This document shows, in pieces, positions 1-18,938 of a DNA stretch of 64,000 nucleotides; positions within the stretch are counted from its first letter, which is position 1; the number at the start of each line of letters is the position of its first letter. Origin of the DNA: Nitrosopumilaceae archaeon (GTDB lineage: Archaea; Thermoproteota; Nitrososphaeria; Nitrososphaerales; Nitrosopumilaceae); the NCBI GenBank assembly GCA_030041535.1, contig JASHNR010000045.1, positions 1 to 64,000 of the forward strand, given 5' to 3'. The notes below the pieces were generated by a model. It had not been told where the DNA came from, ran no database searches, and worked only from the letters and a program-made list of their open reading frames with translations. Made by a program: the position numbers and the translations under genes.

Positions 1-380
1 TTAATTTACTTTATCATTGTTCTAGATTTTTCCTCTATAATTCAAATTCATAAAATAACTTCAATATTTCCAAAGATTTTGTTTATTACTTGTAATCGTT
101 TCGCCCAATCCATTACACATTCAGAGTTATCTTCCCTATTCACCAATATGGGTCTGCCCGATGAATCTAGATACGCTATAAACATCGATTGGATCGCTAA
201 CAAGTTCCTGAAAAAGTTTATGCCAAAAAACTGTTATACTAACACTTCAAACTGCGTTTTAAAATGGGGAATTAAACTAACTAGACAAAGCTCCTCAAGG
301 GCATCATCTCAAATCTTACAAGTTCCAATACAATATAGTCCTAAATGATTCAAAAATTTCAAGTGTAAAAATAGTAATAA
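1..380. other. stretch without a supported gene
   Basis: AT-rich sequence to the left of the Argonaute gene. One open frame on the plus strand (79-348, TTG start, 89 codons) has no recognisable domain, signal or membrane segment and no good start context, so it is not called as a gene. It could be the remnant of a decayed reading frame in the accessory island. No tRNA, repeat array or inverted repeat was seen. Confidence 0.4.
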
Positions 381-1967
381 TCACATGTAATACAGATACT
401 CATGTCTAGGATTGATTGACTCAGGTAAACTTGCCATAACCTCACCTACCCTTTTAGAGAACAATAATGTGATTGGTTTTGCAAGACTAAATTCTGCACT
501 GTTCCAATTCATTTTACTTAATGCGAGTATCTCGGTAAGTATCACATCAGGTGGAGAGTCTCCATGATGCTCCAATATATCCAATGGTAATGGAATATGC
601 GCTCCAGGATAAGTTCTAAGATAGGGAGTAAATCCTCGGGTGTATAGTAGATAGTTAGATTTGCCAAGTTGTATTACAGTACCGCGTAGCGGAGGAAATT
701 GACCATATCTAAAGAAGCGTATATCACGTTCACCAATTGCAACGAGATCATGCATCTTAATTTCTTTTAATGCATTCTCAAATCCTTTTTTTTCACCTTC
801 CCAATATTTTGATGACTTATGTACTACTACACGAAGCGGAGGTTGTCCAATCCTGTTTGAATAAAGTTCAATTGCTTTCTTCAACAATGCTTCTGCACCC
901 TTTTCATCTAGATGTGGAGAGCGATCCTGGTAAGTATCCCATTCGAATCTATCACCTCTTATTATCAAGCCTTCTCCAGTGTAAGTAAATACTTGAGCCA
1001 TACTGGTTCTCATTCTATTTTCATCATCCGTTAGATCCTTGAAGAAAGTAATTCCTACATAACATGTACCTATTTTCATTCTAGTCATAGTCCATGGAAA
1101 TCCACTACCTTTGTAATGTAAGGCAACTGAAAAGTTCCATGCAATCGTTGCTAGGTCTTGACGCTTTTCTTTTTCATCTTCTTTCAGAGTGTATGTTGTA
1201 GAAGGCCACACAATTTGTGTCGGCATGCCAAAAGTCATTGCTTCTGCCTTTAAAGCTCGCCAGAAATTTGTAACTTCAATATCTTTTTCTATAATTTTCA
1301 ATGCCTCAGCTTCGAAGTTATCCAAGAAAGATTGTTTTTTACCTGTTGCATCTGGTGTAAGATGATGTTTTAGAGTTTCTGCCAAATCTCCCCTTTTTGG
1401 CTTTTTCTTAACTTTTGTAATGCCAGCTGATGTTCTTTTAACTACGCATGAATCTACAATATCTTGTGGTAATGCACAGATAACAACATTTGGTTTTGGC
1501 ACTCTTTCACTAATGTTTTCTATTTTATCGATAAACAGTTTTACTGCATTTTCTACACGTTTTTCAAATATAGGTTGTTCAATTGCTCTTTTCAGATCTA
1601 AAGTTGTGATAGTTTCATTAAGATCATCTGATAAAGTTAGAAAACAATTGAATGCGTCCTTAAAACCAGGAAAAGGAGGATGTTGAAACGGGTTATCGTT
1701 TGAACTAGAAACTTTGTTCATTAAACTTTGCAAGAATCTTTTCGCTTGCCCTATTGTTTCACCTGTACCTATTATTCCAACAGATATAGATGTAGGATTA
1801 GGTATTTTTGGATCTGTTCTTAAAGGTCCATACAAGGTTAACCCCATCTTTGGATCAATGTGAGTTTTACCATCTCCAAAAATTAATAGAGGTTCAGGGA
1901 TGTACCAGCTCTGGAATTTCTTGTTACTTTGAAGACTAACATGTTTAGGTTCTTGAGGTACGGTCAT
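381..1967 (-). CDS. short prokaryotic Argonaute (MID-PIWI), catalytically inactive, SPARTA subunit
   Basis: The 528-residue protein has only MID and PIWI regions and lacks PAZ, the length and layout of short pAgos. MID-like strands lie around residues 60-255 (for example NVVICALP near 160 and PTQIVWP near 249). The PIWI part spans about 275-528, with CYVGITFF at 302-309, VVHKSSKYWEGE at 381-392, KMNWN at 485-489 and PITLLFSKRVG at 498-508. In active Argonautes the first catalytic Asp follows the strand at CYVGI; here Thr307 stands there, so target slicing is not expected. Family knowledge: short pAgos bind a guide RNA and a complementary DNA target and switch on a partner effector. The start codon overlaps the stop of the TIR-APAZ gene (ATGA), so the two are translationally coupled. 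Confidence in the family is high; the RNA-guide/DNA-target preference is inherited from characterised SPARTA. Confidence 0.9.
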   Translation of the reverse strand: MTVPQEPKHVSLQSNKKFQSWYIPEPLLIFGDGKTHIDPKMGLTLYGPLRTDPKIPNPTSISVGIIGTGETIGQAKRFLQSLMNKVSSSNDNPFQHPPFPGFKDAFNCFLTLSDDLNETITTLDLKRAIEQPIFEKRVENAVKLFIDKIENISERVPKPNVVICALPQDIVDSCVVKRTSAGITKVKKKPKRGDLAETLKHHLTPDATGKKQSFLDNFEAEALKIIEKDIEVTNFWRALKAEAMTFGMPTQIVWPSTTYTLKEDEKEKRQDLATIAWNFSVALHYKGSGFPWTMTRMKIGTCYVGITFFKDLTDDENRMRTSMAQVFTYTGEGLIIRGDRFEWDTYQDRSPHLDEKGAEALLKKAIELYSNRIGQPPLRVVVHKSSKYWEGEKKGFENALKEIKMHDLVAIGERDIRFFRYGQFPPLRGTVIQLGKSNYLLYTRGFTPYLRTYPGAHIPLPLDILEHHGDSPPDVILTEILALSKMNWNSAEFSLAKPITLLFSKRVGEVMASLPESINPRHEYLYYM

Positions 1968-3418
1968 TCTTCTGTTTCTTCCTCTTCCTCATTTTCAATT
2001 TCATCCATATTGAAATCTGCTTTTGTATCGTCTTCTGCTACCTCAAACACTTTTTGTATTGAGAGTTGATCACCATCTATTCCAACTGATATGTCAGAAA
2101 CTGCTGGAGTTATATCTACATCAAGTTGAAGGCCATCTGCAAGTTTAATTGAGATTTTATCTTGTCCTTTTGAAAGAACATAACACCAGAAACGAATGTG
2201 GTAAAATACAGAGGAATTGTATTCATTATGAGTCCATTTTGACGAAAGCGAGCCTATTTCCCGAGGAGAAATAGAATGTTCACCGTCAAAAGTAAAAGTC
2301 CAACCAGGTACCAGTTGTAAGAATATTTCATTATTTATTATCAGGAAGTTGGTTTGGATTGACTGATGTGCCCAAAATATCTTTCCTTCTTTGCCTTTTT
2401 TATATTGCTTAACAACTGCTCTAGTTGATTTTCGTTCTCCAGTATTCCACTCAATTTCTCGATTTCCTCCTCCATAAGGCCTAAAATAGAATCGTTTATG
2501 TTTCTCATCAAAATACAAATCTAAATTTCTACAATGATTTCTAAGAGCACGATTTAACATTTCTATTAGTCCATTTTTTTTATCTAGGTTATTCAACCAG
2601 GGTGTTATTTCATTTTTTTCAATAGAATCAGCAATTAACAATTCTCGAAAAGGGCATGATTTGTCATGTAAATCACAGAATGAATAAAGTAAATCATTTC
2701 GTAACATGAAGGTCGGAAATATTCCTTTGACACTTCGAGTCAGATGGTAAAAAACATCTTTGTGAGTTGATGAAACAGGACCATTCCAGATATGTCGTGG
2801 AATATGAGAAATGGGAAGTAAATTACTGGCAAGTTGTTCTTCTACCTCATCAGCATATTCAATTGGGAATAAAGCGTCGGTAGAAAGTATGTTTAGAGAA
2901 GAAGGTTTCATCGTTCCACGAGGTAGTTTTTGGTTTTTTAAAATGGCAACGAGTTTATTGTATGATTTTTTGTATTCGAGATTATCTCTACAGTATAATA
3001 CATTTCTAATTTTCAGAGATGGGGGAATCTCACAATTTCCTAACCACAAAGGTATTACGAATCCCTTTTTTCCACTAGGGTCATTGTAAACTGCCATGGT
3101 CCATTCCATTTTTGGCCATTCCTCATTGATAGAATTTGGAGATAGAACTACCCCCACGAATCTTGATCTTTGCATTGCATAATCTAACTTTAGTACGATA
3201 TTCTCTCCCGGTATGACATCCCAGTCATCAAAAAACACCTTAAGATTCCGATCATTGTAAGTTTCATTCTCGACGGATTCTGCTAATTTTTCAACCCATG
3301 GTTTGTCTCCACTGTTATGGCAGAGAAAAATATCATACTCTTTATCCTGTGGCACGTCATGATCGTGATTTGTTATGTTAAAACGTATACAGAGAATAAG
3401 ATCTAAACCTTTTGTCAA
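1964..3418 (-). CDS. TIR-APAZ effector subunit of a SPARTA system
   Basis: The N-terminal TIR domain covers about residues 27-160: EYDIFLCHNSGD at 27-38, FFDDWDVIPGE at 62-72 and SPNSINEEWPKMEW at 93-106, where Glu105 is the expected catalytic NADase glutamate. Residues about 170-455 form the APAZ region that docks onto a short Argonaute. The last about 25 residues are very acidic (MDEIENEEEEETEE at the end). Known SPARTA complexes oligomerise through TIR after guide/target binding and hydrolyse NAD(P)+, killing or stalling the cell when invading DNA is sensed. The gene precedes and overlaps the Argonaute gene by 4 bases. The longest frame starts at TTG 3418; a GTG at 3355 (MPQDKEYDIF...) would start just before the TIR fold and is as likely. 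A GATC-rich, palindrome-bearing control region lies upstream. Confidence 0.9.
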   Translation of the reverse strand: MTKGLDLILCIRFNITNHDHDVPQDKEYDIFLCHNSGDKPWVEKLAESVENETYNDRNLKVFFDDWDVIPGENIVLKLDYAMQRSRFVGVVLSPNSINEEWPKMEWTMAVYNDPSGKKGFVIPLWLGNCEIPPSLKIRNVLYCRDNLEYKKSYNKLVAILKNQKLPRGTMKPSSLNILSTDALFPIEYADEVEEQLASNLLPISHIPRHIWNGPVSSTHKDVFYHLTRSVKGIFPTFMLRNDLLYSFCDLHDKSCPFRELLIADSIEKNEITPWLNNLDKKNGLIEMLNRALRNHCRNLDLYFDEKHKRFYFRPYGGGNREIEWNTGERKSTRAVVKQYKKGKEGKIFWAHQSIQTNFLIINNEIFLQLVPGWTFTFDGEHSISPREIGSLSSKWTHNEYNSSVFYHIRFWCYVLSKGQDKISIKLADGLQLDVDITPAVSDISVGIDGDQLSIQKVFEVAEDDTKADFNMDEIENEEEEETEE

Positions 3419-3479
3419 AAGTATATTTTTCTGAGATCAGTAATTTACGAACAGAAATTGTAAAAATACACATAACAGA

Positions 3480-3494
3480 GATCAATTATTGATC
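3480..3494. promoter_or_regulatory. inverted repeat upstream of the SPARTA genes
   Basis: The 15-base sequence GATCAATTATTGATC is a perfect 7+1+7 inverted repeat about 60 bases upstream of the longest TIR-APAZ start. It lies inside a 102-base stretch (3435-3536) with five GATC sites. The form is that of an operator; the binding protein is unknown. Confidence 0.4.
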
Positions 3495-3636
3495 GCTCTG
3501 ATCCTCTGCTATGAGAAAAAACTATTATTTTAGATCAGATTTTAATTCTACAAGTTATACAAATATCTAAAATCCACAGAAGTTCCGAATCTGGTAGGAC
3601 TCGTCATTTCTAGTGTACACATACACGACATAATTC

Positions 3637-6294
3637 CTATGTTTTGTTTTTCGAAGGATATGCAGCATCTGATGCTTTACCTCTAGACATGTCAAATAGA
3701 ATATTAACAATGTTCAGAGGTTCTATCCTACCCTCCTTGTTATGCTTTGTTCTGAATATTGTTTTGACGGTAGCTATTGCATCTAGAACAAAAGAATCCA
3801 GAGCGTAAGATGAATGATTTTGTGCGGCATCTTTTGCCTTGTTCACAGTATTTGCCCATTCTTTTTGTTTGCTAATGGTAACATAGATTGCATTTTCATC
3901 TCTGTTAGTATTGTAGCCTAGCAACTGATTAATTCCTTTATGATAGTAATTTTCACCATCCCATATCTTAAATTCCACAACGATAACTTCAGATGGATTA
4001 TCAGGGTTTTTTATATGGATGTCAGTGTTTCCTTCAAGTCTTATTGTTTCAGATGTTACTCTTCCATCAAAAATCAAATCTAAATGTGATTTGAAATAGT
4101 CTCTGAACTGGTTTTCATTAAAATGAGAAAAAGAAGGAGAATTTTCTTCTAACTGAAGTCCGATTTTACAAATATTTTCTAAAACTTCATCGAGAAAAGA
4201 TTTTCGAGTTTTTATTTCTGAGTTAGCTTCATTAGATGCTTGTAAGAGGCTTTCCTGCATAAATCTGATCATATTTTGATTCTTCTCCAAGTTTTCCTTT
4301 GTTCTCTTGTAATCCAATAAAAGCAGTTTTACATTTATGTTAAATTTCTCGGTAACTACTGTATCACCATATTTTTCTTTTAATTTAGCAAGTAATTCAT
4401 GAGATGCATCTAATTTTCCCCAATCCTGAAGCAAATCAGAATACCACAATCCCATGTCTCGTTCGTCCTTTTCATTTTTCATTAATTTTTTATATAGTTC
4501 TTCAGATTTTTTGAAATACTCTTCTCTTTCTTGATCTTGTTTACTTAATCCCATTAGGTGTTCATAGTCTGCGTTAAGTTGATCAGAAAGAATTGAAGGA
4601 TTTGGCAGTTCGGGAATTCCCTGTACTCCATGTTGCGATTTCGGTAACAAATCAATAAAATTTTTTAGGTTAAATGCTGCTTTCCCGTATTGTTCACGTT
4701 TCTTTGTCGGATCTTGTTCCTCATTTGCTAAAGATTGATAATATATCGCGGCACTTGCGCCTGCCATCTGATGGTCTTCATATTGAGTAAAGTATTCCAT
4801 TGCTATCTTTGCAGGTTCTTTTTCTCGTGTTCTAGATGCTATTACAAAACTAGATCTTGCAATGCAGTCTAATTCTAACTTATTACCTATATTTTTAAAA
4901 TGTTTTGCAGCATCTAATAGTAATTTGATTTGTTTATCAGGATCTCTTTCAAATAATCCTCCAAAATAATAATGGCGACCCATACTTGCGTCATACCAAT
5001 GTTTATTCTCTGAAATTTTGAATTCTTCTGCTGCAAGTTTATAGTTTTCAATGCTTTTTTGAATATTTTTTGAAAGTCCTGCTCTGACAAACAATGAAAT
5101 GCCGTTTGTTTGATGATACATCTCAGTTTGTTCAGATAATTTGTAATACTCTCCTGCTTTCTTTAGATATTCTAACTGTTGGTTGGGATCGCTAACGGTA
5201 CCAAATGATGCATAATTTGCTAATGCCAACATGTGATGATGCATTTCTGTCTTATCACTTTTTTTAAACCACTCAGCTGATTCGAAAAAATCCTTAGCTG
5301 ATTGTAATAAATTTTTTCTAGTCTTGGCCAGCCGGAGACAGATAAGACCATTCACTTTTGACGCTTTTTTTATAGCATTACCTTTTTTGTAATGCTCAAC
5401 AGCTTTTCTCAAAATCGGGATTTGTTTAGATATGTCTTCCTCATAAAGACCCTTTTCATATTGGTAATCGCCTAATGTTGAAAAGTAATCATGTTTTTCT
5501 TTTGTTTTCTCTAATAATCTTACAGCTTCATAAATTAATTTCAAACGTTCTTCATGGTTCTTGTTTTGATTTGCTAACCGTTGATAATAATTTGCCATTA
5601 CATAGGTCTCCAATTCAGATGCGTGTCCTTTCTTGAATTCTTCTGCAGTTTTTTTAACTAAATCAATAGCATCAGCAGGTTTGCTATTGGGAACTTGTGC
5701 TGAATAATACATTCCCATGGCCTGATGATGTAGATTCATTGCTCCAATTTCTTTGAAAATATTTGCTGCCTTCAAATCAATTTCTATTCGTTTTTCATTC
5801 GTCGTAGCCTTTCGTTTACCCATTTCATATGCTTCAGCAGCAAGCTGGCTTTTTCGATATCCTAGTTTTTCAAACTGTTCTCCGATGTACTTGTACATAT
5901 CTGCCTGTTGATCTCCAATGAGATAATTTACCTCATGCAACTTGAGAGCAAGTTCATCTCCAAGGTCCTTGTATGCCTGGTTTATCTCTGGTCGTAATTT
6001 ACTTGCATCTTTCGGATCTTTATTTTTCCTTGTGAGTAGAACTTGTATATTTGCGATTTTTCTTTCAACGTCAGTGTATTTTTCATTTTTAAAAATTTCA
6101 GTCCATATGTAGATCTCTTTGCCAAAATCTCCTTTCAAGCCATAATTGATTGCTTTTATGATGTCTTGGTAGAATTGTTTTTCTTCTTCTGAGGTTGCCT
6201 TTTTAAGATATTCTTGTGCTAATGCCAAGGAAAATTCAGAGTTGATAAAGATGATAGAGTATTCAAGCTCACTCAATTTGGTTACATTTGACAT
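3637..6294 (-). CDS. TPR-repeat protein with C-terminal PD-(D/E)XK nuclease domain
   Basis: The protein has 885 residues. About residues 60-580 are helical repeats of TPR type, seen as recurring A-YY-A / EEFKK / AAKHFK-like helix pairs spaced 35-40 residues. A charged coiled-coil-like stretch follows at about 600-720. The C-terminal domain (about 725-850) shows PD-(D/E)XK motifs: Asp758 in GNTDIHIK, Glu774-Phe-Lys776 in VVEFKIWDGE and Gln790 in INQLLGY, as in Mrr/RecB-like nucleases. I infer that the TPR part senses a partner or ligand and the C-terminus cuts DNA. It sits 218 bases upstream of the SPARTA pair on the same strand, but has its own GATC-rich upstream region. ATG start at 6294. 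No exact family name is offered. Confidence 0.75.
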   Translation of the reverse strand: MSNVTKLSELEYSIIFINSEFSLALAQEYLKKATSEEEKQFYQDIIKAINYGLKGDFGKEIYIWTEIFKNEKYTDVERKIANIQVLLTRKNKDPKDASKLRPEINQAYKDLGDELALKLHEVNYLIGDQQADMYKYIGEQFEKLGYRKSQLAAEAYEMGKRKATTNEKRIEIDLKAANIFKEIGAMNLHHQAMGMYYSAQVPNSKPADAIDLVKKTAEEFKKGHASELETYVMANYYQRLANQNKNHEERLKLIYEAVRLLEKTKEKHDYFSTLGDYQYEKGLYEEDISKQIPILRKAVEHYKKGNAIKKASKVNGLICLRLAKTRKNLLQSAKDFFESAEWFKKSDKTEMHHHMLALANYASFGTVSDPNQQLEYLKKAGEYYKLSEQTEMYHQTNGISLFVRAGLSKNIQKSIENYKLAAEEFKISENKHWYDASMGRHYYFGGLFERDPDKQIKLLLDAAKHFKNIGNKLELDCIARSSFVIASRTREKEPAKIAMEYFTQYEDHQMAGASAAIYYQSLANEEQDPTKKREQYGKAAFNLKNFIDLLPKSQHGVQGIPELPNPSILSDQLNADYEHLMGLSKQDQEREEYFKKSEELYKKLMKNEKDERDMGLWYSDLLQDWGKLDASHELLAKLKEKYGDTVVTEKFNINVKLLLLDYKRTKENLEKNQNMIRFMQESLLQASNEANSEIKTRKSFLDEVLENICKIGLQLEENSPSFSHFNENQFRDYFKSHLDLIFDGRVTSETIRLEGNTDIHIKNPDNPSEVIVVEFKIWDGENYYHKGINQLLGYNTNRDENAIYVTISKQKEWANTVNKAKDAAQNHSSYALDSFVLDAIATVKTIFRTKHNKEGRIEPLNIVNILFDMSRGKASDAAYPSKNKT

Positions 6295-6427
6295 AGATTA
6301 CACGATTAATCTAGGTGGATCATATTGTTACTTAAAGTTAAGAACGAGTAGAGATCCTAGAGATCTGACATTCTAATACTCTGGTAATTCTTCAAAATCA
6401 GGTTTATTGAAAAGTTTTGAAAAGATT

Positions 6428-6688
6428 TCAGGCTTCCATCTTTTGTATCTTCGAAACTATATCCTTGCCCTTCTTTGTCACAGAATAGATCTTACCGACC
6501 TTCTGTTTTGGAGTCAGACACACAACTATTCCTTTGTCTTCTAGCTCTGTAATTGCCCTGCTTATGTTTGCCAGATTCAAATCTAGATCTTTTGCAAGAA
6601 AAGTGGGTGTTCTAGGAGTATCAAGCTTCAAAATAACTGCCTTTCTTGTTTTGCTGGCAATAACATAACTGACATCATTCCATGACAT
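6428..6688 (-). CDS. winged-helix transcriptional regulator
   Basis: An 86-residue single-domain protein with the MarR/ArsR-like winged-helix pattern. The recognition-helix region is TFLAKDLDLNLANISRAITELEDKG (about residues 29-53, described here by its pattern), followed by a wing (IVVCLTPKQKVGKIYSVTKKG). It is transcribed divergently from the secreted-protein gene at 6771, and the 82-base gap between them carries three copies of an ATTATCA motif. This suggests it controls that gene, itself, or both. The same regulator plus secreted-protein layout recurs at 22839/23175. The ligand is unknown. Confidence 0.75.
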   Translation of the reverse strand: MSWNDVSYVIASKTRKAVILKLDTPRTPTFLAKDLDLNLANISRAITELEDKGIVVCLTPKQKVGKIYSVTKKGKDIVSKIQKMEA

Positions 6689-6723
6689 TCAGGCATGCTT
6701 CAGTATCGGTTTATATCCGCCCT

Positions 6724-6755
6724 ATTATCATTTAATTATCAATCTATTATCAATC
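6724..6755. repeat. three direct ATTATCA motifs in a divergent promoter
   Basis: ATTATCA occurs at 6724-6730, and ATTATCAATC at 6735-6744 and 6746-6755, the starts being 11 bases apart. They lie just upstream of the TTG start at 6771, between a winged-helix regulator and a secreted-protein gene. The helical phasing suggests an operator for the regulator. Confidence 0.45.
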
Positions 6756-6770
6756 CTTAAATAAGAAATT

Positions 6771-8240
6771 TTGATCAAACTACCATTGTTCAAGATAGTA
6801 TTTGCAATAGCTCTTATTTTCTTGAGTCTTTCAATAATACCTGTAAGTGCTCAGACACTAGAACAGCAATTGCAGTCTGCTAGAGAAACATATCCCACTG
6901 GAATTGCTGCAAACGGTCTAAATTATGCAAATAACTATGCGCACTACACCGTTAACACAAATGCAGTAATTGGTATTGCACACATTAATTCCATTAGCGT
7001 CAATCCGCCTAATTCAGGTGCTGGCCTGCAACTAAATGTCGTATTACATGTAATAACAACCAATGGAACTACGGACTATTGGTTGCAAAATGTTATTCAG
7101 TTTGGAGACACAAATTCTCAAACTGCAAATTTTTTGGACAATATATGGAATCTAAGTAATCCTGAAGATACTTCACAAATCTGCGCACACACGAATATTC
7201 TTAAGCATATAGTCTGTAAAATATTGGGGGTTTATGCTACACCTACCACACAATTCGTGTATCAGCTACCGTTCACGGAAGAACTTGCCATAAGTGAAGA
7301 AACCATTCTGGGAAAGGGAGTTCAAATACAATTTATGTACAATGGAGAGGGTAAAGCAAGTCTATATGATAACAGAATGATAACAATTCCAAACATAACT
7401 TCGGCTTCGCTTTTAATCACTGCAGATAATACTACAAATATTGGCCTCAATTATGATGCAGAATTTGTATTTGGAGGAATAGGGAATGGAGAGACTGGCA
7501 ATTTCAATGCAATGAACTCAACCTTGGGCCTTGTCTACAATGACGGTAGCATTAATTTAGCACAATGGGAGACATTTCCAAGTTATAATAATGATGGATA
7601 CGATACTGCAGAAACTGCCCAAAACATATACTCTACAATAAACTCTCAGAATAATGGAACTGCATTAGTAGAGCTAGGAAACCCCCAAAATCAAAACACT
7701 GCTATTCAGACAATACCATCAACTCCGCCAACTATAACGAATGGACAACAAACCCAGCCAATCATTAATACACCTTCATATCAACAAAATTATTCTCCAC
7801 TTACAATCTCAACTGATAAACAATTCTACACTCTAGGTGATACCATTGTAATTACTGGCGTGGCAGCATCTGTTTTACCTGGTACTCCTTTAGCTATTGA
7901 GATTTTAGATCCTAACAACAATCTTGTCCAAATGACACAGATCGACGTCCCATCAAATGGACAATTTACAGAATCATTTCTTGCTTCAGGTCCCTTATGG
8001 AAAGCAGATGGAACTTATACCGTAAAAGCTCAAAATGGTGCTCAAAACATTTCAGCACAGACAACATTTGATCTCACTTCCACCTCGCCTCAAATTACGC
8101 CACAGACAACGCCTCAGATCGTGACCCCATCATACAAAGTTCCTGAATTTGGAACTCTCACATCAGTTGTATTTTTGATCGGTGTTATCACAACTATGGT
8201 CATTTCTGTCAGGCTCAGGTCAAAAACAACCGGGGTATGA
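6771..8240 (+). CDS. secreted surface protein with Ig-like domain and PEFG sorting signal
   Basis: The 489-residue protein starts at TTG with a clear signal peptide (hydrophobic residues 7-25, cleavage likely after VSA at about 27). The middle is rich in Asn, Thr and Gly, as in archaeal surface proteins. Residues about 343-435 form a beta-rich domain opening STDKQFYTLGDTIVITG, related to a domain in the protein at 23175. The C-terminus has VPEFG at about 457-461, one hydrophobic segment and a basic tail, the tripartite PEFG-CTERM signal handled by archaeosortases in Nitrososphaerota. It is therefore probably exported and anchored at the cell surface. No enzymatic motif was seen. It is divergent from a winged-helix regulator. 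Confidence 0.8.
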   Translation: MIKLPLFKIVFAIALIFLSLSIIPVSAQTLEQQLQSARETYPTGIAANGLNYANNYAHYTVNTNAVIGIAHINSISVNPPNSGAGLQLNVVLHVITTNGTTDYWLQNVIQFGDTNSQTANFLDNIWNLSNPEDTSQICAHTNILKHIVCKILGVYATPTTQFVYQLPFTEELAISEETILGKGVQIQFMYNGEGKASLYDNRMITIPNITSASLLITADNTTNIGLNYDAEFVFGGIGNGETGNFNAMNSTLGLVYNDGSINLAQWETFPSYNNDGYDTAETAQNIYSTINSQNNGTALVELGNPQNQNTAIQTIPSTPPTITNGQQTQPIINTPSYQQNYSPLTISTDKQFYTLGDTIVITGVAASVLPGTPLAIEILDPNNNLVQMTQIDVPSNGQFTESFLASGPLWKADGTYTVKAQNGAQNISAQTTFDLTSTSPQITPQTTPQIVTPSYKVPEFGTLTSVVFLIGVITTMVISVRLRSKTTGV

Positions 8241-8363
8241 TATTACTAGATATATCATTTGGTCACTAATCATTGGTATACAAATCTTTAAATTCCTTAA
8301 CGTGTAATGGTATACAATGAGAGCAGCCAAAAAGAGTCAAAATGGAGATGCGAAAAAGTGCTG

Positions 8364-8597
8364 ATGAAAATAGCTCTAGTTGCTTTTGTGGCACTAGTCT
8401 TCATTGGACTTGGGGTTAGCGGGACAATAAACGCGGCCCTAGCAGGATACCACACGGTAGAGCAAAATCCAGTAGTACAACAACTGCAGAACAAAACAGA
8501 AACTACTCTAAAGGCAGAAATACACACACAACTTGCAAACGTAGAAAATGCCGCGGCAAACGCAGTAGCTCAGAAAATAGGAAGTGCGACCACTTGA
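8364..8597 (+). CDS. small membrane or secreted protein
   Basis: The longest frame begins at ATG 8307, but residues 1-17 of that frame are polar. The ATG at 8364 (or GTG at 8358) begins directly before a hydrophobic segment (IALVAFVALVFIGLGVSGTINAAL), which looks like a signal or anchor. The exported part of about 50 residues is rich in Gln, Ala and Asn with heptad-like spacing. The downstream 67-residue gene overlaps its stop (TTGA), so the two are coupled. A TATA-like TTTAAA lies at about 8287. No function can be assigned. Confidence 0.55.
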   Translation: MKIALVAFVALVFIGLGVSGTINAALAGYHTVEQNPVVQQLQNKTETTLKAEIHTQLANVENAAANAVAQKIGSATT

Positions 8598-8797
8598 TTT
8601 TCTGGTGTAAATGTGGTTGTGCATATAACGACATGTTGAGCCTGAAGGAGCATCAGAGACTAGGATGCTGTGTTGCAACCGGAAAGGAAGCTATCTCTAC
8701 GACATATTCATCACAGATAGAAAAACCCAAAAAGAAAGGTCACTGGTACAATGCAGTACCATACTTTTTTGGAAAAGGAAGGGAGATACCAAAATGA
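8594..8797 (+). CDS. small Cys/His protein, possible zinc finger
   Basis: This 67-residue protein starts at a TTG that overlaps the upstream stop. Residues WCKCGCAYND and KEHQRLGCC give a Cys-rich, His-containing N-terminal half that could bind one zinc ion. The C-terminal half is basic (KPKKKGHW). It is coupled to the small membrane protein before it. The predicted fold is a guess from residue spacing; partner and function are unknown. Confidence 0.5.
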   Translation: MIFWCKCGCAYNDMLSLKEHQRLGCCVATGKEAISTTYSSQIEKPKKKGHWYNAVPYFFGKGREIPK

Positions 8798-9001
8798 CCC
8801 TTCATTTTTATTAAAAATGATATGTTCTATAAGACTCGCTGTCATGAAACAATTTCAGACCTATTAGGAAAATTTGTCAAACGGTCTAGCACCCTTATTG
8901 GGTTTTAATTAAATGGCCAGTCTATTGAAAATGCGCTTTACTAAGACGTATATGACCGAAATTTGATAATTATTTTATACGTATTAGCCCGCTTACCTGA
9001 T

Positions 9002-9493
9002 ATGAAATGGAAAGTAAGATTGTATCTTAATACATATGCTCAAACACCATTTCAAATTGATACTCCTATTGGCATGTTTCGAAATTCACAATTATATCCT
9101 AATATAGACGGCCAGAAAGGATGGTATTTTGATGTATATACCGATGGTGGGAGTGATCCTTCTGCCGCAATACGTGACGTGCTACCGGATATTGGTGAAA
9201 TATTTGGTAAAATGAAATTTCCACATGCCATTACAGAGGTCGTAGTTTTCAATGTAAACGAAATTTTCAGATCAGATGATCCGCATGCATCTGCTGTTCC
9301 TAGAAATGAAATCATAGACCTCAAAATAATTCCTAACGAACAATTATTTCAGAGACTTTTTCAATTCCCACATGGTATAAAGATTAAGAGAATGAAGACA
9401 GATAAAGTGATGATGGAGTTGATTGATTTTAATTTTCAACGTATTCGTCAGGTCACACAACCAATTCTTGACGAAATCAAAAATAATTGTTAG
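9002..9493 (+). CDS. hypothetical protein
   Basis: A 163-residue soluble protein if started at ATG 9002 (the frame is open further, from TTG 8963). Composition and length suggest a real gene. It has alternating hydrophobic strands (VRLYLNTYA, GWYFDVYTDGG, AITEVVVFNV, NEIIDLKIIP) and a C-terminal helix. No known domain was recognised and no signal peptide is present. It converges with the cyclase-like gene at 9612. Confidence 0.5.
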   Translation: MKWKVRLYLNTYAQTPFQIDTPIGMFRNSQLYPNIDGQKGWYFDVYTDGGSDPSAAIRDVLPDIGEIFGKMKFPHAITEVVVFNVNEIFRSDDPHASAVPRNEIIDLKIIPNEQLFQRLFQFPHGIKIKRMKTDKVMMELIDFNFQRIRQVTQPILDEIKNNC

Positions 9494-9611
9494 GTACATT
9501 TAACAAAAATCTGTAGTGTTTATCAAAAATCTAGGTATTAAACACATTGAATCCAAACACTAATTTCAGTAATTTTTAAAAATTATGGTCAAACAAATAT
9601 ATGATTTATTT

Positions 9612-10625
9612 TTAGATGTTATTTTTAATTGAATTATGGTTCGAGTCGCAGAAAACTCTCATTTTCTTACCATATTTTATTCCAATTACTTTAAGATAAT
9701 CAAATCTATTCTGTTTTTGTGTAGTTAATTTGTCTTTGATGTTTTCAGTTATCGCGAATCCATTTTCTGATATGATTCTTTCATATTTAATAAATTGATT
9801 TAGATCTTTTGAAGCCCAAAAACCTGGTTCCTTATCAGCAAAAATCTGCGGATCATACATAGCACATACCCTAATGCCAAGATGTTGTGTGTCAAGATTT
9901 TTGTGACTTTCCCGCCACTTATCAAATAAATCATAAACATCATCGGCGGCATCTACTACCACGTCATAATTTTCCAGACCTACAGCTTTCTTGACAAAAA
10001 TTCCGCCATCTCCTGCCCAAAATAGCCTATAAAATCCATAATCTTTCAATTTACCTGTAACACTCTTAGCTAATTCTTTTTTTGATTGGTTTTTTTGAAC
10101 TTCGTTTTTATCAAACCAAGATGAGTGGTTTTTCAGATCAACCTGTAACAGGAGAAATGGGTATAATCCACCATTGCCAAACTGTGCAAAGAATTCTTCA
10201 TCAAAACCAGGATCATTCATTGATCTTTTCTCATCTACTGGATTCCAGGATATTTTGAAATTTACGGTTTTATCTGTATTAACTGAATGAGAATTATTAA
10301 GTATAAAATAATAGTATTGATTTTGTTGTGGCGGTTTGAAATATAATGTATTCCAGTAAGATTTCGATAACGCTAATGGATTTGCTTTTTCCAATAGTAG
10401 TTGATTTGCTCCTGCTTTAATAGCTCTCTTATTACTCTCAAAAATATTGAAATTTTGCTGATCAAAAACATACACCAGTATATCGTCACGAGATTTGCGT
10501 GTTTGTATAGTTTCGATTTCTATCAAATAATACCCAATAGTTTCTGGAGAGTGGAGTTGATATTGATAGTATTGGCCTACCTTGATGACAATTTTGTTTC
10601 CAATGACGGGATAGTCTTGATTCAA
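9612..10625 (-). CDS. possible class III nucleotidyl-cyclase-like protein
   Basis: The 337-residue protein has two parts. Residues about 8-128 are strand-rich (VGQYYQYQL, YYLIEIETI, YYFILNNS), probably a beta-sandwich sensor. Residues about 155-300 follow the order of a class III cyclase domain: LLLQVDLKNHSSW with Asp163 (first metal Asp), LFWAGDGGIF with Asp206 in the hairpin (second metal Asp), LGIRVCAMYD at 249-258 where family members have an R-V-G-I-H-like strand, and DLNQFIKYERI at 274-284 where they have the V-N-x-A-x-R helix. If active it would make a cyclic nucleotide, as PycC does in Pycsar defence. No partner effector was recognised nearby. The call rests on motif order only and could be a look-alike fold. 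Confidence 0.45.
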   Translation of the reverse strand: MNQDYPVIGNKIVIKVGQYYQYQLHSPETIGYYLIEIETIQTRKSRDDILVYVFDQQNFNIFESNKRAIKAGANQLLLEKANPLALSKSYWNTLYFKPPQQNQYYYFILNNSHSVNTDKTVNFKISWNPVDEKRSMNDPGFDEEFFAQFGNGGLYPFLLLQVDLKNHSSWFDKNEVQKNQSKKELAKSVTGKLKDYGFYRLFWAGDGGIFVKKAVGLENYDVVVDAADDVYDLFDKWRESHKNLDTQHLGIRVCAMYDPQIFADKEPGFWASKDLNQFIKYERIISENGFAITENIKDKLTTQKQNRFDYLKVIGIKYGKKMRVFCDSNHNSIKNNI

Positions 10626-10709
10626 AGTACCAATTGTTTATTTCTAGTCATATTATTAGTTATTTTTGTCTACATTCACATTAGATCATGAAATCATTAG
10701 AAAGAAGCG

Positions 10710-10913
10710 CTACTGAGGAAAATTCCTCGCATATATTTTATTAACATATGAATCGAACTCTCCAGGGTTTATAGCTCCATTACACGCCCTGATTAATTCA
10801 TCCAGCATCGCCAGATAATATGAATCTAAAATGTCATATTTGTGGAAAATAATTTTCATAAATTTCTCATTCCTTATGTTGCTGACTATACCTGATGGAA
10901 TACCGCCAAACAT
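10710..10913 (-). CDS. small hypothetical protein
   Basis: A 67-residue, mostly helical frame starting at ATG 10913 (IIFHKYDILDSYYLAMLDELIRACNG). It ends 85 bases upstream of the cyclase-like gene on the same strand, so the two could share a transcript. No motif was recognised. It may be a remnant of a longer gene or a small partner of the cyclase-like protein. Confidence 0.35.
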   Translation of the reverse strand: MFGGIPSGIVSNIRNEKFMKIIFHKYDILDSYYLAMLDELIRACNGAINPGEFDSYVNKIYARNFPQ

Positions 10914-10970
10914 CCGCTAAGGTATGAAATACATTTCAAACATCAAAATGATGTTTTTTACTTATGTATA

Positions 10971-11119
10971 GATCAAATTCAGAGTAAGAATTTAGGAGAT
11001 CGATGATCTACCTATGTAAAATCTAAGTGTATAAAAAATAGTTTATTCATATTAATTCAGATCGGATCGCGATCATTTACTTTTTTGCTTGCGAATAATT
11101 GATCCACTTGTTTTTGATC
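10971..11119. promoter_or_regulatory. GATC-dense control region
   Basis: Eight GATC sites occur within 149 bases, at 10971, 10998, 11005, 11060, 11065, 11071, 11101 and 11116. The surrounding DNA is AT-rich, where fewer than one would be expected. The stretch lies just upstream of the two-gene nuclease unit at 11182. GATC is self-complementary, so the cluster could be an array of protein-binding or methylation sites. Confidence 0.45.
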
Positions 11120-11181
11120 TACCATTTCAATAAACTATACATTGTCAGAAACCGGTGAACCAAGAAAAACTGGTGATGTGA

Positions 11182-12354
11182 ATGAAAATTGACCGTGAAT
11201 TCTGGGAGAATCTTGACATTTCTGTTGATGATGTCATAGATCTAGAAAAAACTGGTAAAAGATTAGTTGTAAGATTATCAAACAAATTAAAACACTCTCC
11301 TGGATGGCTTGAAATACTTAACGAAATTTTAAAGAAAAAATATGATTCACTCAAGGAATTATTACAGCACCTCTATGTATTTCGCAAAGGTGAATTTTAC
11401 AAGATTTATTTTCTAGCAGAATTTGCTGAATTAGTTGACAGGAATTCCATTAAAAATAGATTGCCAGAAGAAATCAAGAAAAAATATGAGAATGATATAA
11501 ATAACATGAAGATTAATTACGATGCTTTACTTCCTCTTATTTTCAAACTTAACAAGGATATAGTCACCAATATTTGGTATGATCACTTGATAAACAGATC
11601 TAGATTGAAACCTTATAGAAGCACAAACAAAATTGATGTTAAAGAATTTTTTGACAAATTAGAAAGAAAAATTGTGGAAGAATTTTTTGTGGATTTAAAA
11701 AACGATAATACAATAAGACGAACACCAAAAGTATGGTGGTTTGAAAAAAGAGATGAAAAGATAAAAATCTTTGTGAGATTGGAAACTGCTAGAAGACGTT
11801 CAATCCATCAAGTTACGAGGAATACTTTTCTTAAAACAGCCGGTGATAGAATCCTGATCATTCATGACAAAGGAAATAGATTGGATGTTTTAGCAAAAGA
11901 ATCAGATACTGTAGCAAAATGGGCTGGAATTTTAGTTAGTAAAGGAACGGGTAAAAAAATCTCATACGAATACATAAATCAAGAAATAGAATCAACAAAT
12001 ATTAAAAATTTCATTGATAAAGTTAGAAATAATGAAATCTCCGGAATAAAATTACTTGGTTTTGAACGAAAGAATGCACCTGTTGCCAATTCACCTACTA
12101 TAAAATTGGAATCAAAAGATGCAGAATCCATAGGTGATTCAATAAAAGAATTAGATAAGGAACATGGATTACAACTAATATCGGATATTCAAGATATTCC
12201 GAATATAACAGTTGGAATAAAGGGTAAATTATACAAGCTTTCACTGGTTACTAGTAATGGGATGACTACAATTCTCTTTGACAACAGAAACTTATCGGAG
12301 GATGAAAAAGATACTGTCAGGCAACTACTGCATAATACAATCAGGGAGAAATAA
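11182..12354 (+). CDS. hypothetical protein, first gene of a two-gene nuclease unit
   Basis: The 390-residue, Lys-rich protein starts at ATG 11182. The first about 160 residues are strongly helical. A central part (KVWWFEKRDEKIKIFVRLETARRRSIHQVTRNTF) is basic and may contact nucleic acid. Near 225-240, ILIIHDKGNRLDVLAKESD resembles a beta-hairpin segment. The C-terminal about 60 residues look like a small alpha/beta domain. No family was recognised. The next gene begins within or directly after its end and encodes a zinc-ribbon nuclease, so they probably act together. The unit lies between other defence-like genes. Confidence 0.6.
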   Translation: MKIDREFWENLDISVDDVIDLEKTGKRLVVRLSNKLKHSPGWLEILNEILKKKYDSLKELLQHLYVFRKGEFYKIYFLAEFAELVDRNSIKNRLPEEIKKKYENDINNMKINYDALLPLIFKLNKDIVTNIWYDHLINRSRLKPYRSTNKIDVKEFFDKLERKIVEEFFVDLKNDNTIRRTPKVWWFEKRDEKIKIFVRLETARRRSIHQVTRNTFLKTAGDRILIIHDKGNRLDVLAKESDTVAKWAGILVSKGTGKKISYEYINQEIESTNIKNFIDKVRNNEISGIKLLGFERKNAPVANSPTIKLESKDAESIGDSIKELDKEHGLQLISDIQDIPNITVGIKGKLYKLSLVTSNGMTTILFDNRNLSEDEKDTVRQLLHNTIREK

Positions 12355-12355
12355 C

Positions 12356-13429
12356 TTGCATATTCCTCTTAGAGAACGATATTCAATTCCTAGCAATGAC
12401 ATGGTGAGATTAAGTGTGCTCAACGAACTAGAAAAATTGGGTTTCATAGATATCATAAAGAAAAGCGTTGTAATCTGTAATAAATGTGATAGAACTATTC
12501 CAAACCCTGATGATAATATAGAGGATAGTGTGCGATGCCCCGAATGTAAAAAACAAGTTAGCATACATAAAGCAAAAATTGATTATTTCATAGAAAAAAT
12601 AAATTACAATAACATAATAAAAAAAATAACAGAACTAATTGAAAATTCAAAATACAGTTATGAGTACGATAAAGAGAATAGATATTGGAGAATAAAGGTA
12701 AGAGAAAAAATTATTCCTTTAATGGTACCGTATATTTCAAATTCTAATTTCCTAATCGCTCATTCTGAAAAAGAGGCAGTAATGTTCGTCATTCTTGACA
12801 GTGAACGAGTCACTTCATTGATTAATGTCATGAATAAATCACAATTTATAGAATTTCAAAAAATATATGATAATCTTGTCTTATTCTCAGAAACTCTCGA
12901 ACAGATCTCGCAGACTTTTGATCAAAATTATGCGCTAACGATTGAACCAAAATTTGACAATATGTTAAATCAGATATCAGCTTATGAGTTTGAAGAATTC
13001 TGTGTAAAGTTTCTCAAAGCTATAAAAGAAAATCATGAAAAGTTATTATCTTTTTATAATTACTTGAATTCAAGAAAAGAGACTATTATCAATTCCAAGA
13101 TAATCAAGCTTGGTGGACCTGGCAGATCTGATTTCCAGCTTATTGGGTTGCTTGATTATCTTCAATCTGGTCTAAGGCCAGAATTGTTTGGCGAGGCAAA
13201 GAAATACAAGAAAACTACATTCACCATAGAAGATTATTCAAAAGCTATTATTCATGCAGATACTAATGATACTCTCTTCTTAGTATCCACAAATAATATT
13301 CAAAAGGAAGTTTGGGAAAAAATACACAGATCAGAAAAGAATGGAAAATACAGATTTGTTTTATTCGACAAAGATGTAATATTAACTCTTATTAGATGTC
13401 TAAAACTTGAAAGCATAATAGGCGATTAA
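12356..13429 (+). CDS. zinc-ribbon PD-(D/E)XK nuclease-like protein
   Basis: The frame is open from 12278, but that would overlap the previous gene by 77 bases; TTG 12356, two bases after the upstream stop codon, is the more likely start (ATG 12401 is another option), giving 357 residues. A CNKC...CPEC pair (residues about 41-64) forms a zinc ribbon after an N-terminal helical part. The C-terminal domain has EFEEFCVKFLKAI (helix with the first acidic residue), GGPGRSDFQLI with Asp259 and ELFGEAKKYK with Glu280-Ala-Lys282, the D...ExK signature of Mrr-like restriction-type nucleases. I infer DNA cleavage, with specificity perhaps from the zinc ribbon or the partner protein. Confidence 0.65.
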   Translation: MHIPLRERYSIPSNDMVRLSVLNELEKLGFIDIIKKSVVICNKCDRTIPNPDDNIEDSVRCPECKKQVSIHKAKIDYFIEKINYNNIIKKITELIENSKYSYEYDKENRYWRIKVREKIIPLMVPYISNSNFLIAHSEKEAVMFVILDSERVTSLINVMNKSQFIEFQKIYDNLVLFSETLEQISQTFDQNYALTIEPKFDNMLNQISAYEFEEFCVKFLKAIKENHEKLLSFYNYLNSRKETIINSKIIKLGGPGRSDFQLIGLLDYLQSGLRPELFGEAKKYKKTTFTIEDYSKAIIHADTNDTLFLVSTNNIQKEVWEKIHRSEKNGKYRFVLFDKDVILTLIRCLKLESIIGD

Positions 13430-13480
13430 GAAAAAACAATAATTGTAATCATGAGATTACTGTTCGGCCTCTATCTAGTG

Positions 13481-13708
13481 TCAAAGTTTATTCAATATTA
13501 CCCTGTATTTTCTGAATAATTTATCTGACTTCTTCTTTAACTTGGGATCCATAGTTTTATCGGCTTCATCTTCAGCTTTTTCAAGTATTTTTTCTGCCTT
13601 TTTTATCTTCTTTACAGCCTTAGGATTCCTTGTTTTTTCTGCCTTTGTTCGCAATTTAATATACTCTCGTTGGGTATTTGCCAATTCATCTTCTAGATAA
13701 TAATTCAT
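13481..13708 (-). CDS. small charged coiled-coil protein
   Basis: Starting at ATG 13708 gives 75 residues (open further to 13750). It is almost entirely helical and very rich in Lys and Glu (KKIKKAEKILEKAEDEADK), a single coiled coil. No catalytic motif or membrane segment. It could be a small DNA- or RNA-associated protein; no function is assigned. Confidence 0.45.
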   Translation of the reverse strand: MNYYLEDELANTQREYIKLRTKAEKTRNPKAVKKIKKAEKILEKAEDEADKTMDPKLKKKSDKLFRKYRVILNKL

Positions 13709-13789
13709 GATTTTAAACTGAAAATTCTGTATAATGGAATGGGTATTCACAAAAATAGACTTCTAAGGGTGTAGTTTGAAACCGGTTCT

Positions 13790-13799
13790 GCTACGTAGC
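13790..13799. repeat. 10-base palindrome between two genes
   Basis: GCTACGTAGC is a perfect palindrome, extended by a G-T wobble and further partial matches on each side. It lies between the small coiled-coil gene and the membrane-protein gene, both on the minus strand. It may be an operator; it has no loop and so is not a good terminator. Confidence 0.25.
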
Positions 13800-13828
13800 G
13801 GTACATAGTCCTATTTTCAGGTTCCAAA

Positions 13829-15151
13829 TTACACGGGTTCTCTTGATCTGGTTTCTAATGTTTTCCAGTTTTCTGATTTAAGCCAATTAATGTTCTTTAG
13901 TTGTTGTAGCTCGTCATAGACCGTCTTTGCAACTGACAAATTATACTCAAACGTACTTATCAAAGATCTTCTGATCTCTACAAGTTCTGCTCCCTCAAAA
14001 CGACTTGACGAAGAAAGATGAGATAGTATCTGAACCAATGGGTCATTGGCTAGTTGCAGGTATCTATCATACTTGACAATATCGTCATGTATTTTTAAAA
14101 TCCTTTTTTGCTCATCTTTATCTAGATCTTTCAGATTTGATGCTGCCGAAGTCCATAATGAAAAATGCATGATTGGGAGATGATCAATCATTATTTGCAT
14201 ATGCTTTGTTTGTTGACCTGGAAATTGATGTATGAAATTTTCATCACTTCTGAGTTTTTCCAAAATACTTTCTAGTTTTGGAATAATCTCTACTTGCTGA
14301 TTGTTAACCTTCTCAAAATCTTCTTTTAGAAAATCTCTAGTCTTCCTAATGTCCAATAAATCCTTCAACCCATTAAGGAAAAATGAAACTCCAGATACAA
14401 CCAAACCTATTCCAATTCCAAGCCAAGCATATCCGTCAGATTTTGCATTTTCTGGAGGAATATGTGCAGTCTCTTCTAGTATCTGAGCAGTACTATTGAA
14501 TGCCCATTCATCCTTTGGATCAAGTATTGTAATAACCGGTATCTGACTTCTATGTTCTTGTATTTTGTCATGAGTTAGAAATGTAAAATCTACAGAATAT
14601 TTTCCAGGAATCAAAAATATGTGTTTTACATGTCCATTATAATCATACAAACACTGCTGACCTTTTGGAGATATACCGTTTGTATATTCAAGTTTTGGAT
14701 CACAGGTTGAGGATTCATTTAAATCAAAATTGAATACCCTGTCATTTGTATAACGAGGAATGTGATTATGAATTACGGTACCATCTGGATTCAAATTAGA
14801 TGTAGTTTGAGTTTGAAAATTCACGTCTGATTCGGTATTGAATACATGTACCGTTAGTTCTTGACCAGGTTGAAGAGTTGTAAGGTAAGAATTAAGGAAG
14901 ACAGGCTGACCTACTTTGTATGGTCCATATTCTGGTTCAATCTTTATGGTGGCTTCTAGCAACCAACCATTTCCAGGCAAAAGGTAATAGCTTCCAGATG
15001 GATAAACAAAGTTTTGACTCGGCAAAGTAGAAATCTGCTCAAGAATCCCTGCATACGAAAACATTTGAGAAGATGCCCAAAACATAAAAGGGCTTAACGC
15101 AATAAGAAAAGCACCTAGTATATAGCTAGCCAAAGCCAATGCTTTTACCAA
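13829..15151 (-). CDS. two-pass membrane protein with external beta domain and cytoplasmic helical tail
   Basis: The 440-residue protein has a first membrane segment at about 5-27 and a second at about 242-262 (WLGIGIGLVVSGVSFFL). The loop between them (about 30-235) is beta-rich with paired Cys (STCDPK, KGQQCLYD), consistent with an extracellular domain. The remaining about 175 residues are helical and charged, presumably cytoplasmic. The arrangement suggests an outside sensor with an inside signalling or scaffolding tail, but no kinase or other catalytic motif was seen. Conserved family unknown. Confidence 0.6.
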   Translation of the reverse strand: MVKALALASYILGAFLIALSPFMFWASSQMFSYAGILEQISTLPSQNFVYPSGSYYLLPGNGWLLEATIKIEPEYGPYKVGQPVFLNSYLTTLQPGQELTVHVFNTESDVNFQTQTTSNLNPDGTVIHNHIPRYTNDRVFNFDLNESSTCDPKLEYTNGISPKGQQCLYDYNGHVKHIFLIPGKYSVDFTFLTHDKIQEHRSQIPVITILDPKDEWAFNSTAQILEETAHIPPENAKSDGYAWLGIGIGLVVSGVSFFLNGLKDLLDIRKTRDFLKEDFEKVNNQQVEIIPKLESILEKLRSDENFIHQFPGQQTKHMQIMIDHLPIMHFSLWTSAASNLKDLDKDEQKRILKIHDDIVKYDRYLQLANDPLVQILSHLSSSSRFEGAELVEIRRSLISTFEYNLSVAKTVYDELQQLKNINWLKSENWKTLETRSREPV

Positions 15152-15475
15152 TTTTTATTCTCCGAGGTTTATACATGAATGGAACTATCTATGTTTAGTT
15201 GTTCTGTCTCCTGATGGTTATGGAACAGTATGTAGATGATTAAGAAAAAATTTGATAATTGTAAGTTTGAAAATATGAATCTCTAATTTTTATGAATTGT
15301 TTCGGCTCCTTTATTTTCCACTACATATGGATACTATATGCGGCACTAGGCAACCAATTTCAAGATTAATTGTAGTGCGAAATACCACTAGAAACAAGAA
15401 AAACAAGAGGAAACAACAAAAAACAAGAAGAACGTTCAAAACTTTATCTGCTTCATACTTTTGTCCAAATCTTTA
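15152..15475. other. intergenic stretch with A-rich AACAAGA repeats
   Basis: These 324 bases separate divergent genes. A small inverted repeat, TAGTG...CACTA, lies at about 15373-15390. A purine-rich run at about 15391-15433 contains repeated AACAAGA-like units directly before the 15476 start. This could be an operator or iteron-like site of the element; no gene, tRNA or strong terminator was seen. Confidence 0.35.
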
Positions 15476-16063
15476 ATGAAGAAAAACCCGAAGGATATGA
15501 CACTCGATGAGGCAAGAAATGAGATATTTCGAAGAATACAACGTGGAGAAAGTTACAGGGAAATTGTAAAGACAGAACATCGAATTGACGGCAGAATCAA
15601 AAGATTCAACATAAGCGAAGTAAGCAAAATAAAGCAGGAATTCACAGGTCAGGCAAGCAGTTCCAAAAACAAGGATCCTGACATGGCTTTTTTATTCGAA
15701 GAATTTGACAAGGAAGAGTCCCTTGTAGATATTGTGAAAAAGACTCAACTTAGTCCTAATTTTGTAAAACAAGCACACGACAAGTATATCGAATTTCGAG
15801 ACAAGAGGGTAATCCCTGGATGGATTGTAGATAAATTATACGAATTAGCATCAAAGATCAAAGGCGAAGAAGTAACCGATTTAGAAGAGGCTCTTGACCA
15901 TCTACAAGAGGCAGTTGTTCGTTATATGAAACCTAAATTTATCTTTCCTTGCGCTAAATGCAAAAAACCCATAGAATTAGATAGTTATGCATGGAAAGAA
16001 GTCTACTCATTCTTGGTATTTGAGAGACGATGGGGACATGCTGATTGTGATGATTACTATTAA
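15476..16063 (+). CDS. DNA-binding-like protein of the integrated element
   Basis: ATG 15476 gives 195 residues (open from TTG 15461). The N-terminal half has two helix-turn-helix-like segments (DEARNEIFRRIQRGESYREIVK and KEESLVDIVKKTQLSPNFVKQAHDKY, given as patterns). The C-terminal part has CAKC (about residues 160-163) with a later HADCDD, a possible treble-clef or zinc-ribbon site. Proteins of this type sit next to integrases in archaeal elements, so a replication or regulatory role is possible. The exact family is not known to me. Confidence 0.5.
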   Translation: MKKNPKDMTLDEARNEIFRRIQRGESYREIVKTEHRIDGRIKRFNISEVSKIKQEFTGQASSSKNKDPDMAFLFEEFDKEESLVDIVKKTQLSPNFVKQAHDKYIEFRDKRVIPGWIVDKLYELASKIKGEEVTDLEEALDHLQEAVVRYMKPKFIFPCAKCKKPIELDSYAWKEVYSFLVFERRWGHADCDDYY

Positions 16064-16225
16064 TCACATTGCGTTGATAACGATCTTCTCTTCACTTGTT
16101 AGAAACTCTTTACCTTCCTTGATGTGGCAATCCTCGCACAATTCCAGAATATAATCTCCTGTTGTCTTGCAGGCAAAGGTCATCCTGTACCTCTTTGGTG
16201 TATGAGTACATCCAAGTGTTATCAA
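16064..16225 (-). CDS. 53-residue Cys/His mini-protein, possible zinc ribbon
   Basis: Read directly from the minus strand. TTG 16225 to TGA at 16064 encodes 53 residues with GCTHTPKRYR, FACK and LCEDCHIKEGKEF, giving Cys6, His8, Cys19, Cys30, Cys33 and His34 for zinc binding. The TTG start overlaps the TGA stop of the preceding 53-codon gene (TTGA), which supports both being real and coupled. Probably a small DNA- or protein-binding zinc protein of the integrated element. Confidence 0.5.
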   Translation of the reverse strand: MITLGCTHTPKRYRMTFACKTTGDYILELCEDCHIKEGKEFLTSEEKIVINAM

Positions 16226-16383
16226 TTCTGGTTCCTCTTTTTTCTCCGCTCCATGAGTTCCCTGTCAACAAGTTCAGAGATGAATTTTGACATGGAAAGA
16301 TTTCCCTGTTCTTCATGTAGCATCTTTATCTGCCAGTATGGTAGGCTGATACAGATCTTTTTGTGTGAAAACTCGTTTTGCAT
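16222..16383 (-). CDS. 53-residue ribbon-helix-helix-like mini-protein
   Basis: Read directly from the minus strand, ATG 16383 to TGA 16222. The sequence has a predicted strand (KKICISLPYWQIKML) followed by two helices (MSKFISELVDRELMERRKK), the pattern of CopG/Arc-type ribbon-helix-helix repressors. It overlaps the downstream 53-codon zinc-type gene by 4 bases. In archaeal elements such proteins usually autoregulate or act as antitoxins; no toxin was recognised here. Confidence 0.5.
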   Translation of the reverse strand: MQNEFSHKKICISLPYWQIKMLHEEQGNLSMSKFISELVDRELMERRKKRNQN

Positions 16384-16512
16384 GTCTACGATATCACTAT
16401 AATTATCTTAAGGCAAATCGGTGCCCAATCAAGCTTCATTCTAGACTGCTATGTTCTGGGTCAAGATCACTTTACCCTGTATGGCTTATGAGAATATGGC
16501 ATCATTAGGTAA

Positions 16513-18781: not shown

Positions 18782-18864
18782 GGTATCCCACCAAATCCGT
18801 TGGAATTGAGAAATGCGGACGGGTTTTCAGCTACTCGAGTCCCAAAAGAAGACCAATGAAGAAG

Positions 18865-18938
18865 CGGGTTCGCGGGGATTCGGACCCCGGACAGCCGGAT
18901 TAAAAGTCCGGTACTCTACCTGGCTGAGCTACGAACCC
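18865..18938 (-). tRNA. tRNA-Lys (anticodon UUU), probable integration site
   Basis: A 74-nucleotide cloverleaf: acceptor GGGTTCG/CGAACCC with discriminator G, D-arm GCTC...GAGT, anticodon arm CCGGA-CTTTTAA-TCCGG with TTT, and T-stem CGGGG/CCCCG. The T-loop reads TCCGAAT, so position 55 is C where nearly all tRNAs have U (pseudouridine). The 3' end faces the integrase gene, so the 3' half may have been supplied by the element. No second copy of the 3' end was found in the window. Confidence 0.9.

Follow-up and report, generated by a model that had tools for sequence, protein, structure and literature searches.

Positions 3637-6294 of the window (the whole 64,000-nucleotide stretch of DNA analysed here, which forms the first part of a 72-kb contig in the 1.83-Mb genome of an ammonia-oxidising archaeon judged to be Nitrosopumilaceae-like) encode on the minus strand an 885-residue protein (P0001) that unites a TPR-like alpha-solenoid with a PD-(D/E)XK nuclease. 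The protein is a candidate for defence, probably as an independent, single-gene immune sensor-effector: its two domains are joined in one chain, its catalytic site is intact and conserved, its gene lies on an accessory island, and its relatives occupy neighbourhoods rich in defence genes.

Anatomy of the fusion protein

The reading frame begins with an ATG at 6294. It is not a chance frame, because 885 open codons would be expected with a probability of about 4e-33 at the composition of the window, and GC content by codon position (0.45/0.29/0.27) follows the pattern of a coding gene.

The nuclease domain spans residues 700-868 (3691-4197, minus strand) and is delimited by PADLOC, alignment, structural models and PDB matches. 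PADLOC aligns residues 685-831 with positions 228-372 of the 410-position profile of PDC-S54 (E 7e-26), while the Pfam match to Mrr_cat is sub-threshold (E 0.11, 13 bits vs a curated cut-off of 21). The catalytic residues named in the original prediction – Asp758, Glu774, Lys776 and Gln790 – proved to be placed exactly; together with E727, R731, E749 and W778 they are invariant in 47 aligned rows (the window protein and 46 relatives; two plasmid rows were left out of the alignment used for the structure model), and a lack of conservation, which would have spoken against the proposal, was thus not encountered. In the full AlphaFold model pLDDT is mostly 92-97 across this domain, and a model of the domain alone reaches a pTM of 0.84. 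The domain model has the PD-(D/E)XK topology. Its PDB matches (Can2, McrC, EcoRV, BamHI) are weak and none is close: Can2 is matched with probability 0.96 and E 0.009, and TM-scores fall below 0.4 for the Can2/McrC/Mrr-type nucleases. Viral Mrr/RecB-like proteins are further structural neighbours, likewise not close, and a sequence search of the PDB returned nothing significant. Because the motif is invariant, the model confident and the structural neighbours distant, motif and model together identify a predicted PD-(D/E)XK nuclease whose active site is intact and whose relatives among solved structures are all remote.

The remainder of the protein, from residue 19 to approximately residue 697 (4205-6240, minus strand), is entirely helical in the AlphaFold model and is assigned to a TPR-like solenoid on the grounds of its helices, periodicity, repeat alignment and PDB matches. 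Alignment of the helix pairs gives a repeat of 40-41 residues, and 41 is the best of all offsets between 20 and 80 (z 6.7 for residues 1-690; z 7.6 for residues 165-550, where the repeats are clearest); none of 1000 shuffles reaches the observed value. The antiparallel helix pairs stack into a solenoid, as is characteristic of the TPR superfamily, and the full model matches TPR solenoids in the PDB, for example LGN, OGT and Ski3. No Pfam TPR model matches at E 1, and the period of 41 departs from the canonical 34-residue motif. The long TPR array of the original prediction is therefore upheld as to kind but not as canonical: with moderate confidence, the solenoid is TPR-like in its predicted fold. 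Structure prediction, which had been suggested as a check, thus yields a confident nuclease domain and a TPR-like part of modest confidence; the two are connected by a long helix (residues 655-696).

The main rival to an immune sensor is an Mrr-like type IV restriction enzyme, either modification-dependent or sequence-specific, in which the TPR array would be a scaffold or DNA-binding surface and the enzyme would attack DNA directly, with no protein as trigger. It would account for the weak Mrr_cat match, for the fold neighbours (McrC, type II enzymes and viral Mrr-domain proteins) and for the fact that some relatives adjoin restriction systems. Nevertheless, we consider it rather unlikely: Pfam and PADLOC detect neither a methyl-DNA reader nor an NTPase domain in the protein, none of the genes assigned in the first 16 kb encodes a partner methyltransferase, and the ligands of TPR arrays are mostly proteins or peptides.

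PDC-S54 relatives and their genomic neighbourhoods

The catalytic domain is the nuclease half of PDC-S54 (model PDLC05036), a phage defence candidate in PADLOC-DB, a membership that the original prediction did not contain. The window protein has the same nuclease domain with the invariant E..R..E..D..ExKxW..Q motif, but differs from the family in two ways: the conserved ECK of the family reads EFK, and the N-terminal ~230 profile positions (the match begins at position 228) are absent and replaced by a TPR-like solenoid of ~690 residues. Since the nuclease feature of PDC-S54 is present and its N-terminal feature is not, the protein is, as judged from its sequence, a PDC-S54 variant with a swapped N-terminal half. 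It had been described as unrecorded: for the nuclease, which is already catalogued, this description fails, and the novelty lies in the TPR fusion, for which the searches made returned no record.

The nuclease half is widespread: one patterned scan of genome contigs yielded 325 loci encoding it, although the nearest relatives of the window protein may have been missed, because the pattern contained ECK where the window protein has EFK. Nearly all carriers are proteins of ~410 residues with a different N-terminal half, from Bacteroidota and other phyla, and the PDC-S54 N-terminal half is present in all but a few relatives. Among these few, a locus from Helarchaeota (L104, 655-2031) encodes leucine-rich repeats (LRR_4, E 8e-31) and the PDC-S54 nuclease (E 2e-56) in a single frame of 458 residues, and two others, from a member of the same family as the window genome (L093) and from an Escherichia coli plasmid (L003), carry the nuclease with other, short helical halves. 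Further relatives are found on plasmids and on a few viral contigs. Only 3 of 250 genomes of the family contain the nuclease.

Among the loci searched, the window protein is the only one to combine a TPR-like half with a close nuclease. Searches with the whole protein found no full-length homologue in 398 genomes of the phylum, plasmids, phages and viral contigs; searches with the nuclease found no second pairing of TPR repeats with a closely related nuclease in the 250 family genomes, in 228 genomes of the Asgard phylum, in 194 of the cyanobacterial phylum, or in 247 and 297 genomes of other phyla. A 564-residue helical protein from an Asgard genome (L109, 1399-3093, minus strand), which has a remotely related nuclease (FEVKIWRG) and an adjoining helicase gene, was considered as a TPR homologue and rejected: since only the nuclease part aligns convincingly, it is a distant analogue. 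More distant PDC-S54-like nucleases were also seen in genomes of the cyanobacterial phylum (L114, 598-2016; L116, 163-1731), one of them fused to an AAA-ATPase (PDDEXK_9-like).

The neighbourhoods of 40 relatives with long flanks were surveyed, with distant proteins of the same loci as control. The 123 proteins within 3 kb of a relative match 295 PADLOC models (1e-10), as compared to 56 models for the 123 control proteins, which lie at distances above 6 kb; the ratio serves as a rough guide because a single protein may count towards many models and the choice of frames was mechanical. Systems represented close to the relatives include SoFic, SspE, HEC-05, HEC-06 and other PDCs; individual neighbours include a retron at L003 and, assigned by eye, type I restriction-like genes at L143. 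The survey proposed at the outset thus places the relatives among defence genes, and not mainly among housekeeping genes. A 2026 survey of archaeal immunity describes the validation of most PDCs as pending (PMC12988326). PDC-S54 is named in no paper of the literature searched, in which no member is experimentally shown to be defensive.

The tRNA-Lys island and its SPARTA genes

In four congeners (G338, G268, G209 and G089) an inositol-phosphatase gene and tRNA-Lys lead directly into a cluster read by eye as succinate dehydrogenase genes. In the window this junction is broken right at tRNA-Lys (18864-18938, minus strand) by at least 18.8 kb (positions 1-18781), headed by a tyrosine recombinase (17537-18781, minus strand) with two partner genes (15461-16063 and 16513-17544). 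The recombinase retains the R/R/LMGH/Y residues and shares 65% identity with an integrase that adjoins tRNA-Val in a fifth congener (G547), where the same trio occurs (L199). The stretch 6295-18781 is not common as a whole to any of 18 congeners searched, and GC content, 0.30-0.40 in the first 16 kb, rises to as much as 0.46 at the boundary with the tRNA gene. The assembly, which breaks at window position 1, holds no second tRNA-Lys end copy marking the far edge. Because the tRNA-Lys junction is intact in congeners and interrupted here by a stretch with a recombinase at its head, the nuclease gene and the adjoining SPARTA genes are, on comparative grounds, accessory cargo of an integrated, strain-specific island.

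This location, and the occurrence of relatives on plasmids and a few viral contigs, would also suit a non-immune nuclease that serves the integrated island or host DNA repair. We regard this explanation, which comes next after restriction, as distinctly unlikely: relatives are enriched beside defence genes relative to the same-locus control, the integrase module of G547 does without the nuclease, and the patchy distribution argues against a part in host repair.

SPARTA is represented by a short prokaryotic Argonaute (381-1967) and a TIR-APAZ protein (1964-3418), both on the minus strand. The pair is genuine by its profiles (PADLOC pAgo, E 2.8e-149; TIR_2, E 6e-23, plus APAZ models), and the nuclease gene lies upstream on the same strand, separated from the TIR-APAZ frame by 218 bases, strand and distance being those of the original prediction. 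That prediction also entertained the nuclease as a third SPARTA-linked component that cuts DNA; such a component would be activated by the pAgo/TIR-APAZ complex or work together with it. The shared strand and the short distance would suit such a link, but comparative loci speak against it. Argonaute is encoded in 10 of the 250 family genomes, and the nuclease accompanies it only in the window's own genome, being absent from the nine other carriers. In two congeners whose pAgo is 89% identical (G089 and G330), the slot 5' of TIR-APAZ is taken by an AAA_16/MarR ATPase in opposite orientation, transcribed away from SPARTA (L137, 9736-10917; L138, 3278-4441), and in G422 by a 271-residue protein that belongs to no Pfam family. 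None of the nuclease relatives was seen adjoining pAgo. Within the 218-base gap there is a T-run and, by eye, an inverted repeat, so that a common transcript is not evident. The 885-residue protein differs from SPARTA in having no pAgo MID-PIWI, APAZ or TIR domain by Pfam and PADLOC, and the published SPARTA complex consists of two proteins, pAgo and TIR-APAZ, whose heterodimer tetramerises with no further protein (PMC11156904). A third SPARTA component is accordingly rejected as very improbable, and the Argonaute pair is treated as a neighbour outside the nuclease system. Since the pair travels without the nuclease, close neighbours on an island need not form one system.

Least probable of all is a toxin-like effector restrained by a partner, for example the winged-helix-like protein encoded upstream or a TPR ligand of the host. 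The candidate partner, a possible regulator of 86 residues, is encoded ~130 bases upstream on the same strand (6428-6688), but an 86% identical copy in G547 (L200, 1141-1401) occurs where there is no nuclease, and most relatives of the nuclease look like single genes; we give this arrangement almost no credence.

Two further loci of the island were observed. Positions 11182-13429 (plus strand) hold two overlapping genes with no PADLOC match, possibly another defence module; the product of the second combines a zinc-ribbon-like segment with what may be a PD-(D/E)XK motif (SDFQL...ELFGEAKKY). A 337-residue protein at 9612-10625 (minus strand) has no family match, and by eye its C-terminal half resembles a degenerate nucleotide cyclase (GDGGIFV ... 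KDLNQFIKYERII).

A proposed sensor-effector and its counterparts

The original prediction of a separate TPR-sensor nuclease system finds support in anatomy and context, that is, in the predicted fold, the motif, the defence-linked relatives and the mobile island. According to our hypothesis, the solenoid would bind a ligand made by a virus or plasmid, either a protein or a protein-nucleic acid complex, and binding would free or oligomerise a presumably autoinhibited nuclease through the connecting helix. Once released, the nuclease would cut DNA: either invading DNA, or DNA generally with growth arrest as the outcome. The N-terminal half may thus be an interchangeable recognition part and the nuclease a constant effector, a division consistent with the variety of N-terminal halves among relatives – the ~410-residue form, the LRR form, the short helical forms and the distant 564-residue protein.

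On a more speculative level, PDC-S54 might form one arm of a modular class of immune receptors, in which a constant nuclease is combined with exchangeable ligand-binding repeats and no NTPase switch; the window protein would then be its first TPR-sensor member and would parallel, in archaea, the innate immune receptors that are built on repeats. We hold this to be possible but doubtful. If true, a catalogued family of candidate nucleases would become a receptor platform, one cutter with varied recognition halves that include LRR (in an Asgard archaeon) and TPR-like (in the window) repeats, and sensing by PDC-S54 would become a question of domain swaps.

Comparison with known systems shows partial likeness in each case. 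With the Can2, McrC and Mrr-type nucleases the window protein shares the overall, predicted nuclease fold, but CARF, McrB and winged-helix reader domains are absent from it. In the Avs proteins, which are STAND NTPase sensors, recognition by TPR-like repeats is joined to a nuclease effector; the window protein resembles them, by analogy, in coupling repeats to a nuclease, but differs in that no NTPase domain lies between its two parts (Pfam and PADLOC give no NTPase family match). In Shedu (SduA) a PD-(D/E)XK nuclease is joined to varied N-terminal domains. Its sequence motif differs from that of the window protein, which gives no match to SduA/DUF4263 at E 1 in Pfam, PADLOC or NCBIfam; what the two have in common is the arrangement itself, a nuclease combined with N-terminal halves that vary.
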